DNA from: Campylobacterota bacterium
Lineage (GTDB): Bacteria > Campylobacterota > Campylobacteria > Campylobacterales > Nitratiruptoraceae
Direction: 5' to 3'
Assembly: GCA_013153715.1 (NCBI GenBank)
Contig: JAADDW010000015.1
Span: 1-64,000 of the forward strand
Length of the DNA stretch: 64,000 bases
This document shows positions 16,571 through 59,736 of the stretch, piece by piece. The notes beneath the pieces are model-generated. The model did not search any database. It was not told the origin of the DNA and worked only from the letters and a program-made list of their open reading frames with translations. A program made the translations under genes and the position numbers. How positions within the stretch are numbered: the stretch's first letter is position 1; each line of letters starts with the position of its first letter.

Positions 16571-16709
16571 GGGGTTGAGATATTTCCCCATTCAGGCGGG
16601 GGTTTTGGCTTGAGAAGGTGATACCAACTCTGGCGAAGAGCGATCCCCCGACCTTTCTATCGCCCATCCTCCTCTAGCCGAGGTCGAGGGTTTCAGGGCG
16701 AAGTTCGGT
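16571..16709 (-). repeat. Third diverged copy of structured-RNA-like element (copy C)
   Basis: Minus strand shares ordered blocks with 58988-59374: ACCGA..CGCCC...GGAG..GGGCGAT..GGGGGA..CTTCgCCAGAG...AAGCCAAAACCCCC...GGGGAAATATCTCAACCC. Confidence 0.45.
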
Positions 16710-46724: not shown

Positions 46725-47399
46725 ATGAGAAGATTTGGAATGGTTTCCCTTGTTGCCGCAGTCCTGCTCTTTGTGGGGTGTGGAGAGAAGAAGGAGGGAC
46801 AGCACCAGCAGGAGGCGACGGCCCACTCTGCCCAGACTGCCACGACCCGAAGCGCCACTCCTCCCTCCTTCCCAGATGATCTCCCAGGAGTAAGTCGAAA
46901 AGGGGCGCCCCAGCAGGAGGCGGCTCCCCAGAAGATAGAGCCCCAGAAGCGCCAGAGCCCTCCGCCGCCAGAGGCCCTTCCAGGGACACCTATCCAGGAG
47001 GTGGCAGACAAGGCTGTTGCCGCCGCTGAGACGGCCCAGAAGGCTGTGGAGCAGACGGCCAACGCTGTCAAGGAGGTTGTAGCGACGGCCAAGAAGAAGG
47101 TGGAAGAGGCGGCGGCCACAGCGGCCCAGAGTGTGACCAAGAAGATGGCTTCAGCCGACGGAGCTACCCTCTATGCCAAATGTTCCGGTTGCCATGGGAC
47201 CAAAGGGGAGCGGAAAGCCCTTGGAAAATCGGCTCCCATCGGGGGAATGGCCAAGGAGGAGCTCCTCAAGAAGTTGAAGGGGTACCAGGCGGGGACCCTC
47301 AATCTCTACGGTATGGGGGGGCTCATGAAGGGGCAGGTAGCCGGTCTCAGCGAAGGGGATCTGGAGGCCCTGGCAGACTACATCTCCAAACTGAAGTAG
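46725..47399 (+). CDS. Cytochrome c553-like lipoprotein with Ala/Lys-rich helical linker
   Basis: Lipobox LFVGCGEKK; long AAETAQKAVEQTANAVKEVVATAKKKVEEAAAT; C-terminal YAKCSGCHGTKGERKALG. Confidence 0.88.
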   Translation: MRRFGMVSLVAAVLLFVGCGEKKEGQHQQEATAHSAQTATTRSATPPSFPDDLPGVSRKGAPQQEAAPQKIEPQKRQSPPPPEALPGTPIQEVADKAVAAAETAQKAVEQTANAVKEVVATAKKKVEEAAATAAQSVTKKMASADGATLYAKCSGCHGTKGERKALGKSAPIGGMAKEELLKKLKGYQAGTLNLYGMGGLMKGQVAGLSEGDLEALADYISKLK

Positions 47400-56463: not shown

Positions 56464-58521
56464 TTGGGAGAGTTTCGGGAGATAGAGAGCCTCTGCACCT
56501 ACTGCGGCGTCGGGTGTGAGATTGTAGCCCATGTGGAGAATGGGGAGATAGAGAAGATCTCCACCAGAGAAGAGGGAAGGGTGAGCCGGGGGAGGCTCTG
56601 TATCAAGGGGAAGTATGGCTACCACTTTCTCTCTAGCCCCAATAGACTCCGGGGAGCTCTGGTCAGATCCTCCTTTGTCCATCAGAACCCTCAACTCTTC
56701 AGGGATATAGAGCTGAAGCCTGCCCAAGGGGAGTTTTTCTCCCTCTCCTATGGAGATGGGTATCGGGTGGTGGCCCGGAAGCTCTCCCAGATCATCGGAG
56801 AGTCGGGTCCCCAGGCAGTAGCCTGCATCGGAGGGGCCCGGACCAGTTGTGAGAGTAGCTACCTCTTCCAGAAGTTCGCCCGTCAGGTCATCGGAACCCC
56901 CCATCTGGACAACTGTGCCCGTATCTGCCACTCTCCCAGTCTCAAGGGGCTCCGGACGACGATTGGAGAGGGGGCCGCTACCAACCCCTTCGATGATCTC
57001 TATGGGAGTGAACATATTCTCGTTGTCGGTTCTAACACAACGGAGGCCCATCCCATTGTGGCCAATCGGATTATGGAGGCTGTCGGGAGGGGGGCAAAGT
57101 TGACGGTCATCGATATACGGGAGATCCCCCTCTCCAAATTTGCCTCCAACCAGTTGACCATTCCCCCCGAAACCAATTTGATGGTCCTCAATATGGTGGC
57201 TCGGACCATTGTGGAGAAGGGGTGGGAGAAGAGGGAGTTCATAGAGGAGCGCTGTCGGGGATTTGAGGAGTATAGGGAGGCCCTCCTGGCCGATCCTCTG
57301 GCCGATAGGGAGCTCTTCTCCCATATTCGGGGGTATCGGGAGCTTCCGGAGAAGATTGAGATCCTCGCCTCCGATCTGGCCCATAGGAGGAGTCTGATTC
57401 TCTGGGGGTTGGGGGTGACGGAACAGAGAGATGGCAGTTTTGCCGTCATGGCCCTCAGCCACCTAGCCCTTCTGACAGGGAATATAGGGAAACGGGGGGC
57501 GGGACTCATACCCCTCAGGGGCCAAAACAATGTTCAGGGGGCTTGCGATATGGGAATGCTCCCCTACTTCCTTCCAGACTACAGGGAGCCTGAGGTAGAG
57601 GGATTGATGACCCCCGATATTATCGATGGAATTGGAGAGGGGAGGATACGGGCCCTCTTCAACATGGGGGAGGATCTTGCCCATGTCCATCCCAACCAGA
57701 ATAAGGTGAGGCGGTTCCTCAAAAAGTTGGATCTTTTGGTGGTCCAGGAGGTAATGTTCAGTGAGGTCACCAAGTATGCCCACCTCCTCTTCGGGGTGAA
57801 GAGCGGCTATGAGAAGGAGGGGGTCTATATCAATGCCGAGCGGCGGCTCCACCTCTCCCAGCCCCTGGTTCCGTCGGACCTTCCCGACGATTGGGAGGTG
57901 ATTCAAGGGATCGGCCGCCACTTCGATAGGGAGTTCCGCTACGGCAGTTCCCAAGAGATTTGGGATGAGGTGAGGAGAGTTGCCCCCTCCCGTTTCAGGG
58001 GGGCCAGCTACCAACTCTTGGCCGAAAAGCGGCTGGAGGGGCTCCAGTGGCCTATTGGGGAGAAGGGGGATACCCCGATCCTCCATGTCGGAAGATTTCG
58101 GACCGAAGATGGTTTTGCCTCCTTCCACTACCACCCCTACCAGATGCGGGGTATGGTGAAGGAGCTCCTCGCCCATAGAGATCCCCATTTCTATCTGGTG
58201 ACGGGGCGGGCTATGGCCCACTACAACAATGGAGCTCAGACAGGGGCGAGTCCCCAGTTGGCCAAGCGGCACAGGGAGGATATTCTGCTGGTGAGCGAGA
58301 GAGATCGGGAGTTCTTCGAGGGGAGGGATCGGGTTGTCCTGGAGAGTCGGTATGGACGGAGTGGCCCCCTTCCCATCAGATATACCCGAACCTTAAAGCG
58401 GGGGGTTCTCTACACCACATTTCACCACATGAGGAGCCATATTAACTCCCTCTTTGGAGATGATCACGACCTGCTGGTGAAGACAGCCGCCTTCAAATCT
58501 ATTAAAGTGAAGATCCTGTGA
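56464..58521 (+). CDS. Formate dehydrogenase alpha-like molybdopterin oxidoreductase (Cys-type)
   Basis: CTYCGVGCEIV...GRLCIKGKYGYHF (4Fe-4S); NCARICHSPSLKGL; GQNNVQGACDMGMLP; TTG start. Confidence 0.88.
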   Translation: MGEFREIESLCTYCGVGCEIVAHVENGEIEKISTREEGRVSRGRLCIKGKYGYHFLSSPNRLRGALVRSSFVHQNPQLFRDIELKPAQGEFFSLSYGDGYRVVARKLSQIIGESGPQAVACIGGARTSCESSYLFQKFARQVIGTPHLDNCARICHSPSLKGLRTTIGEGAATNPFDDLYGSEHILVVGSNTTEAHPIVANRIMEAVGRGAKLTVIDIREIPLSKFASNQLTIPPETNLMVLNMVARTIVEKGWEKREFIEERCRGFEEYREALLADPLADRELFSHIRGYRELPEKIEILASDLAHRRSLILWGLGVTEQRDGSFAVMALSHLALLTGNIGKRGAGLIPLRGQNNVQGACDMGMLPYFLPDYREPEVEGLMTPDIIDGIGEGRIRALFNMGEDLAHVHPNQNKVRRFLKKLDLLVVQEVMFSEVTKYAHLLFGVKSGYEKEGVYINAERRLHLSQPLVPSDLPDDWEVIQGIGRHFDREFRYGSSQEIWDEVRRVAPSRFRGASYQLLAEKRLEGLQWPIGEKGDTPILHVGRFRTEDGFASFHYHPYQMRGMVKELLAHRDPHFYLVTGRAMAHYNNGAQTGASPQLAKRHREDILLVSERDREFFEGRDRVVLESRYGRSGPLPIRYTRTLKRGVLYTTFHHMRSHINSLFGDDHDLLVKTAAFKSIKVKIL

Positions 58522-58982: not shown

Positions 58983-58988
58983 TATAAT
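58983..58988 (+). promoter_or_regulatory. -10 box TATAAT upstream of tandem structured leader of trxA
   Basis: gagTATAATttc immediately before repeat unit A. Confidence 0.55.
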
Positions 58989-59182
58989 TTCACCGAGAAA
59001 TCGCCCGAGCCCCTATCTGGAGATATGGGAGAGAGGGCGATCGGACGGGGGAGTCTTCTCCCGTGGAAATATCAGGTTTGGGCGACAACCTTTGGCAGAG
59101 AGGGAGATTGAAGACCTTCAGGAGAGGGTATCTCCACTGTGAAGCCAGAACCCCTCGGTTACCGATGGGGAGTTCGCCAACC
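58988..59182 (+). repeat. Structured-RNA-like repeat unit A
   Basis: Shares ordered blocks with unit B incl. 16/16 CAACCTTTGGCAGAGA and 11/11 TGAAGCCAGAA; helix CGCCC/GGGCG; CCCCtCGGttaCCGaTGGGG. Confidence 0.65.
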
Positions 59183-59185
59183 AAA

Positions 59186-59374
59186 TTTCGCCGAGAATCC
59201 CTTGGTTTCGATCCTGGGGATATGGCGTGAGAGGGTTGGGGCATCAACCTTTGGCAGAGATGGTATAGGAGTTGGCCGGCCATCGGTCCCGGTCATCTTG
59301 TCGATGCCGCCTTGACAGGCACCATCGTTGAAGCCAGAATCCCCTACCCCAGATCTGGGGAGTATGCCAATCCC
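59186..59374 (+). repeat. Structured-RNA-like repeat unit B
   Basis: TTTCGCCGAGAA...GGGGATATGGCG...CAACCTTTGGCAGAGA...TGAAGCCAGAATCCCC...CCCCAGATCTGGGGAGTATGCCAATCCC. Confidence 0.65.
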
Positions 59375-59412
59375 TAAAAAAATCCCTAAAATCTTGAAGG
59401 AAGGAGAGCAGA

Positions 59413-59736
59413 ATGGGCAAGTATGTAGAACTCTCAAAAGGGAATTTTGACGAGGTTATCAAGAATAACAAGGTGGTGATGGTTGACTTCTGGGCCCCCT
59501 GGTGTGGACCGTGCCGCATGATCGCTCCCATTATCGACGAGCTAGCCGATGAGTATGAGGGGAAGGCGGTCATAGCCAAGGTCAATACAGACGAGGAGCA
59601 GGATATAGCCATTCAGTACGGTATCCGCTCTATTCCGACAATTCTCTTCTTCAAAGATGGAGAGTTGGTGGATCAGATGATCGGTGCCGCCAGCAAAGAT
59701 GTTTTTAAACAGAAGCTGGACGCACTCCTCTCATAA
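59413..59736 (+). CDS. trxA: Thioredoxin
   Basis: MVDFWAPWCGPCRMIAPIIDELA. Confidence 0.97.
   Translation: MGKYVELSKGNFDEVIKNNKVVMVDFWAPWCGPCRMIAPIIDELADEYEGKAVIAKVNTDEEQDIAIQYGIRSIPTILFFKDGELVDQMIGAASKDVFKQKLDALLS

Follow-up and report, generated by a model that had tools for sequence, protein, structure and literature searches.

Two abutting ends-only elements of the IS608 type, each with an omegaRNA scaffold, in the trxA leader of a Nitratiruptor-like genome

The trxA leader and its two structured units

The window (the whole stretch of DNA analyzed, 64,000 nt) belongs to contig C26 of a Nitratiruptor-like campylobacterotal genome, denoted G000, the best TrxA relatives of which are Nitratiruptor MAGs. 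The interval studied here is flanked by a yraN-like gene and trxA, and the genes that follow trxA read as trxB, dapB, and purF products. Upstream of the yraN-like gene, a large ORF at 56464-58521 resembles, as judged by eye, a molybdopterin oxidoreductase or formate dehydrogenase, and the order of this ORF and the yraN-like gene is also present in the relatives that were read. It can be observed from the sequence that a TATAAT -10 box at 58983-58988 is followed by two structured units of approximately 187-190 nt, located between the -10 box and the ribosome-binding site of trxA and displaying the same conserved blocks in identical order. Two tandem units with a shared block order had been described in the original prediction, which was confirmed in this respect, the repeat of the 16-mer CAACCTTTGGCAGAGA being far above chance. 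This 16-mer occurs exactly twice in the window, at 59086 and 59245, while at up to three mismatches there are four matches in the window compared with a shuffle mean of 0.52, no shuffle reaching four. The three-mismatch matches near 47170 and 50488 were considered as a third copy and rejected, as they were missed by the RNA model described below. The quoted pairings are likewise present, namely GGAGAT (59103-59108) with ATCTCC (59130-59135) in the first unit, GATGGT (59259-59264) with ACCATC (59321-59326) in the second, and TGGC with GCCA in both. Additional to that description are a pseudoknot, a left-end half in each unit, and the true boundaries of the units, denoted A and B. The features are listed below, where a caret marks an insertion point.

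58983-58988, + strand: -10 box of the trxA promoter, predating the insertions (TATAATTT is conserved 5' of trxA in relatives L001-L006, all without the insert)
58990-58993, + strand: putative remnant of the TTAC target, now TCAC (L001 has TTAC here, reading TATAATTTTAC^TCCC against TATAATTTCAC^CGAG in the window)
58994-59180, + strand: element A, ends-only and IS608-like (left end plus omegaRNA/right end), with right end CCAA rather than TCAA (end-to-end alignment with elements of G009, G004, and G015)
59000-59041, + strand: left-end palindrome of A, ATCGCCC...GGGCGAT enclosing CCCTATC...GATATGGG (fold and alignment with family left ends)
59074-59180, + strand: omegaRNA scaffold of A, with stem 1 at 59074-59078/59087-59091 and the pseudoknot between the stem-1 loop GGCGA (59081-59085) and TCGCC (59174-59178)
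Further stems of the A scaffold, + strand: stem 2 at 59093-59096/59144-59147, stem 3 at 59103-59108/59130-59135, stem 4 at 59151-59158/59162-59170
59181-59370, + strand: element B, the second ends-only element, with left end CAAATTTCGCCG... and right end CCAA (left end identical to CAAATTTCGCCG of G004:C143)
59233-59370, + strand: omegaRNA scaffold of B, with stem 1 at 59233-59237/59246-59250 and the pseudoknot between the stem-1 loop GGCAT (59240-59244) and ATGCC (59364-59368)
Further stems of the B scaffold, + strand: stem 2 at 59252-59255/59333-59336, stem 3 at 59259-59264/59321-59326, right-end hairpin to 59361
59371-59386, + strand: flank and putative guide of omegaRNA B, TCCCTAAAAAAATCCC, being the old trxA leader and the right half of the empty site (L001 and L005 read AC^TCCC)
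59413-59736, + strand: trxA, the downstream gene, encoding a thioredoxin with WCGPC (ORF list, relatives)

When each unit was folded singly, A reached z = -3.15 and B only z = -0.93. Minimum free energy folding misses the pseudoknot and mispairs B, and the structures were therefore taken from covariation.

A dispersed IS608-type family and its omegaRNA

A BLAST search of both units against 40 relatives returned many copies in G009, at least one in G015 and G004, and another on contig C35 of the own genome. In whole-element alignment, A and B are covered over their full length; local scores are 32-74, and shuffles reach at most 25-30. With an RNA model derived from 16 copies, eight loci were recovered in G000 at E<1e-3, namely A, B, and loci on contigs C15, C35, C43, C3, C21, and C42. 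A was matched at 59069-59180 with 70.9 bits and B at 59228-59370 with 78.9 bits, scores raised by construction as both were among the model-building sequences. Weak matches in the window at 16575 and 17116 (E 0.06) were treated as chance. Across the order, copies are distributed patchily in 18 of 249 genomes, with up to 15 matches per genome. The protein-less elements are multi-copy and dispersed, with 15 matches in G009, where most elements are approximately 230 nt, at least four in G015, and eight in G000. It should be noted that the G009 elements (L117-L130) are near-identical, that many of them lie at contig ends, and that TATAAT stands 10-15 nt before the omegaRNA core, a placement as if every miniature copy might transcribe a guide RNA of its own. 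At least three tnpA copies are present in G009 as well.

The dispersed copies in congeners all have the layout TTAC^C(A/G)AA...AAAG-hairpin...omegaRNA...GAAT-hairpin...TCAA. On the copies that were read out, the constant termini are TTAC^C(A/G)AAA.TTCGCCG on the left and GGGGAGTATGTCAA (a TGTCAA end) on the right, and the guides at the 5' base of the two hairpins read ..GTAAAG-CCCC.. and ..CCAGAAT-CCCC.., respectively. In IS608, CL is TTAC, CR is TCAA, and GL (AAAG) and GR (GAAT) are situated at the 5' hairpin bases, with TTAC remaining in the left flank (PMC5934647). Furthermore, autonomous copies lie between matching ends at G004:C59 (tnpA and a frameshifted tnpB) and G025:C32 (tnpA and an interrupted tnpB). 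Pfam identified Y1_Tnp (PF01797; E 4e-47 and 4e-43, respectively) and, for TnpB, the TNB domain (PF07282; E 3e-16 and 3e-18), and the OrfB_IS605 domain was also confirmed in the G004 copy. The family belongs to the IS608 type of IS200/IS605 and shares with IS608 (ISHp608 of Helicobacter pylori) the TTAC kept on the left, TCAA on the right, the AAAG and GAAT guides, and the Y1 (HUH) TnpA plus TnpB of its autonomous copies. The window units differ from IS608 in having neither tnpA nor tnpB and in the mutation of TTAC and TCAA to TCAC and CCAA. They also resemble PATEs (palindrome-associated transposable elements), IS200/IS605 derivatives that consist of left and right ends only, are moved in trans, and are multi-copy. 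Unlike PATEs, the present elements retain the omegaRNA in full, and in many family copies it is directly preceded by TATAAT. The ends-only copy at G000:C35:29728-29836 (L166, L112), with TCAA intact, lies in the secA leader immediately after a -10-like box (TACAATTTTAC^CAAACTTCGC). A preference in G000 for insertion just after a -10 box was considered and dropped, since the trxA and secA copies fit it and the others do not obviously do so.

Regarding the omegaRNA itself, its 5' portion doubles as coding sequence for the C-terminus of TnpB (..DRDVNAAINICRVGASTLGIGEVRP; ..INICRVGASTLG..; ..HDRDVNAAINICRVGASTLGIGEVRP..) in G004, G009, G116, G025, G247, and G176. In the own genome, the omegaRNA on C15 (36662-36772, L164) is preceded by a degenerate TnpB C-terminus (..WICPEYNTKDDRDIEAYKVGINLWR), the final vestige in G000 of an autonomous copy. 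In the family, stem 1 is AGGTT/AACCT or GAGTC/GACTC, with the loop GGCAT pairing with a 3' ATGTC. Stem 2 is TGGC/GCCA or CGGC/GCCG, stem 3 is GGGGA/TCCCC, GATAC/GTATC, or GATGG/CCATC, and stem 4 is CCCCCGCC-TTTA-GGCG(T)GGGG. Every helix is paired in both A and B after alignment by hand, and the pseudoknot is 100% paired across the 16 sequences, with double changes. Pairing was observed in 90.6% of the cells spanned by 16 sequences and 32 pairs, compared with 82.2% in shuffles and 35-47% in slid versions. Changes on both sides occurred in 18 of the 32 pairs against 10.1 in shuffles, none of the 500 shuffles being as high; shuffle counts ignore the kinship of the sequences, for which the slid versions correct in part. 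Some stem-3 cells of A and C35 were misaligned by MAFFT, and covariation is consequently probably underestimated. It is this family covariation, not folding energy, that constitutes the convincing structural evidence.

The reRNA/omegaRNA of ISDra2 comprises the tnpB 3' end, the right end, and approximately 16 nt of flank (PMC8612924). Its scaffold, approximately 116 nt in length, is built from four stems, the last of which is capped by a UUUA loop, and the loop of stem 1 forms a pseudoknot with the final bases of the scaffold (PMC10097598). The family RNA follows the same plan: a scaffold of approximately 110 nt, to which the 3' end of tnpB and the right end contribute, has the four stems and the pseudoknot, and the guide lies directly downstream. 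In contrast with ISDra2, the window units have no adjacent tnpB, B has an enlarged stem 3, and the sequence is not recognized by Rfam. Sequence and ends, the target site, the autonomous copies, and the topology of the scaffold together identify the conserved RNA as the omegaRNA of TnpB. A side remark of the original prediction, that the 3' block recalls IS605/TnpB right-end omegaRNAs, was therefore right. Taken as a whole, A and B represent, with high confidence, IS608-type IS200/IS605 elements of the PATE/MITE type that lack protein genes and entered the trxA leader independently of each other. Each has a full omegaRNA scaffold, and both are most likely immobile fossils tolerated in the leader. 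As they stand, they are derived, decayed members of the family and not functional elements.

Empty sites and the probable order of insertion

In L001, whose TrxA is 97% identical, and in L002-L006, the trxA promoter is conserved and the units are absent, leaving approximately 25-45 nt from the -10 box to the region of the start codon. The empty site reads TATAATTTTAC^TCCCAAAAACC in L001 and TATAATTATAC^TCCCTCAC in L005, and the filled site in the window reads TATAATTTCAC, then A (58994-59180) and B (59181-59370), then TCCCTAAAAAAATCCC. Comparison of both empty sites with the window indicates that the flanks join at TTAC^TCCC. As L001 is a related species and not the same one, the empty site, and with it the TTAC that presumably served as target where TCAC now stands, is reconstructed across some divergence.

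The absence of the insert bears directly on the main claim of the original prediction, that of a new thioredoxin leader or riboswitch-like RNA. According to this reading, a trxA riboswitch or tandem leader RNA would sense redox state or a metabolite, which would suit the position in the 5' leader, the tandem units with conserved blocks, and the compensatory changes between A and B. However, relatives with TrxA up to 97% identical do without the insert, every close relative examined lacking it in the trxA leader, and the same fold recurs at the 3' ends of tnpB and at numerous unrelated loci. Moreover, Rfam gave no match in the window at gathering, and at E<=10 returned only implausible eukaryotic ones, none of them credible. 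Since the covariation belongs to the transposon family, it provides no evidence of trxA regulation. A riboswitch is accordingly considered extremely improbable, and the claim is unsupported.

For the two insertions, the following process is proposed. An IS608-type TnpA cuts at TTAC on the left and TCAA on the right, and inserts single-stranded DNA exactly 3' of TTAC. B would have entered first, into TATAATTTTAC^TCCC a short distance after the trxA -10 box. A would have followed at the TTAC left in place next to B, thereby landing between TTAC and B. Since TTAC remains to the left of the inserted DNA, a repeat event at that TTAC would be expected to abut the first in the same orientation, with A younger than B. 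The left end of B, CAAATTTCGCCG, indeed begins at most 1 base from the right end of A, a single extra C being located at the junction (59181). From the known mechanism and the sequence, the order of B and then A is probable. Local duplication of a single element could also yield two adjacent units alike in orientation and block order, which are the points in its favor, but tandem stacking is already predicted by insertion 3' of the retained TTAC. In addition, A retains an internal hairpin segment that is missing in B. Alignment scores are 52 for A with G009_L123 against 40 for A with B, while B reaches 74 with the C35 copy and 55 with G009_L121. Each unit is therefore closer to other copies than to its neighbor, and duplication is unlikely.

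Present state of the elements and possible use of their guides

Both A and B end in CCAA, whereas the family copies and C15 and C35 of the own genome end in TCAA. The left guides of A and B have diverged from AAAG, and the right guide GAAT is kept in B and reads GAAC in A. In the genome search, no Y1 transposase was found in G000, and no OrfB_IS605 match was present in this genome, which is 98% complete; the sole TNB trace is a 24-residue shard on C45. At up to two mismatches, the putative guide of B (59371-59386) matches only its own site in the own genome. With no TnpA gene, no intact TnpB, and TCAA lost in both units, A and B look orphaned and are probably immobile. The trxA promoter would read through both units. 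If the cell contained a matching TnpB, the guide of omegaRNA B would be the trxA leader sequence and that of omegaRNA A the beginning of B. A and B appear to have no present function; effects on trxA expression are possible.

A use of these scaffolds by the host was also considered, in which exapted omegaRNAs are kept as stand-alone guides once mobility is lost; they would be transcribed from the trxA promoter and direct a TnpB- or TldR-like protein to trxA or other sites. There are TnpB repressors that lack nuclease activity and work with guide RNAs (PMC13418256). Both scaffolds have remained intact (70.9 and 78.9 bits), compared with four other copies in the own genome that have decayed to 29-48 bits. 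Furthermore, the change of T to C in TCAA, found in both units, converts a G-U pair of the pseudoknot to G-C, as though mobility had been traded for RNA stability. However, C15 and C35 are equally intact without such an argument, and the differences could predate insertion, having arisen in active elements. The 98% complete genome offers only the 24-residue TNB shard and no OrfB_IS605, and the guide of B finds its own flank alone. Preservation of the scaffolds is compatible with selection on the RNA, but also with recent insertion of a diverged subfamily, and the genomes compared contain no orthologous filled site. Exaptation is very unlikely. A more specific version is just as doubtful, in which immobilized omegaRNAs, captured by the trxA promoter and in another copy by the secA leader, would be retained as host-expressed guides, the change from TCAA to CCAA marking the switch and TnpB being provided by a related element that is present only intermittently. 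The likeness to TldR-associated guide RNAs lies in a scaffold derived from a TnpB omegaRNA outside an active transposon, and the difference in the lack of a TldR or TnpB gene nearby or in the genome and in a guide that matches its own flank alone.

In a partial literature collection, no title or abstract on a stand-alone or tandem omegaRNA arrangement was found. The interpretation of A and B as separately acquired transposon ends illustrates how transposon guide-RNA scaffolds can mimic a new riboswitch, with lineage-wide covariation, leader position, and tandem layout all arising from transposon biology. As the family is unmatched in Rfam, such elements can yield false regulatory-RNA calls. 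It also documents an IS608-type family in Campylobacterota, the miniature copies of which keep the whole omegaRNA, and TnpB could in principle be guided by them to many sites in trans.

With respect to wider searches, approximately 13 BLAST places in G032 (e.g., L114) were discarded, representing a multi-copy protein-coding repeat (..PYFFIQEFKKGKKPTDPEPQLLAEMISAVELNKSTTIRGAF..) spread over many contigs and unrelated to the RNA. An exact motif scan of viral contigs and a distant BLAST of plasmids gave nothing. BLAST against phages retrieved just the 22-nt core; its matches were located in Helicobacter prophages and turned out to be kin of the element. These relatives (L106 in BK070050 and L107 in BK070119) are unannotated, and one of them overlaps a phage gene at a long in-frame extension of its start.
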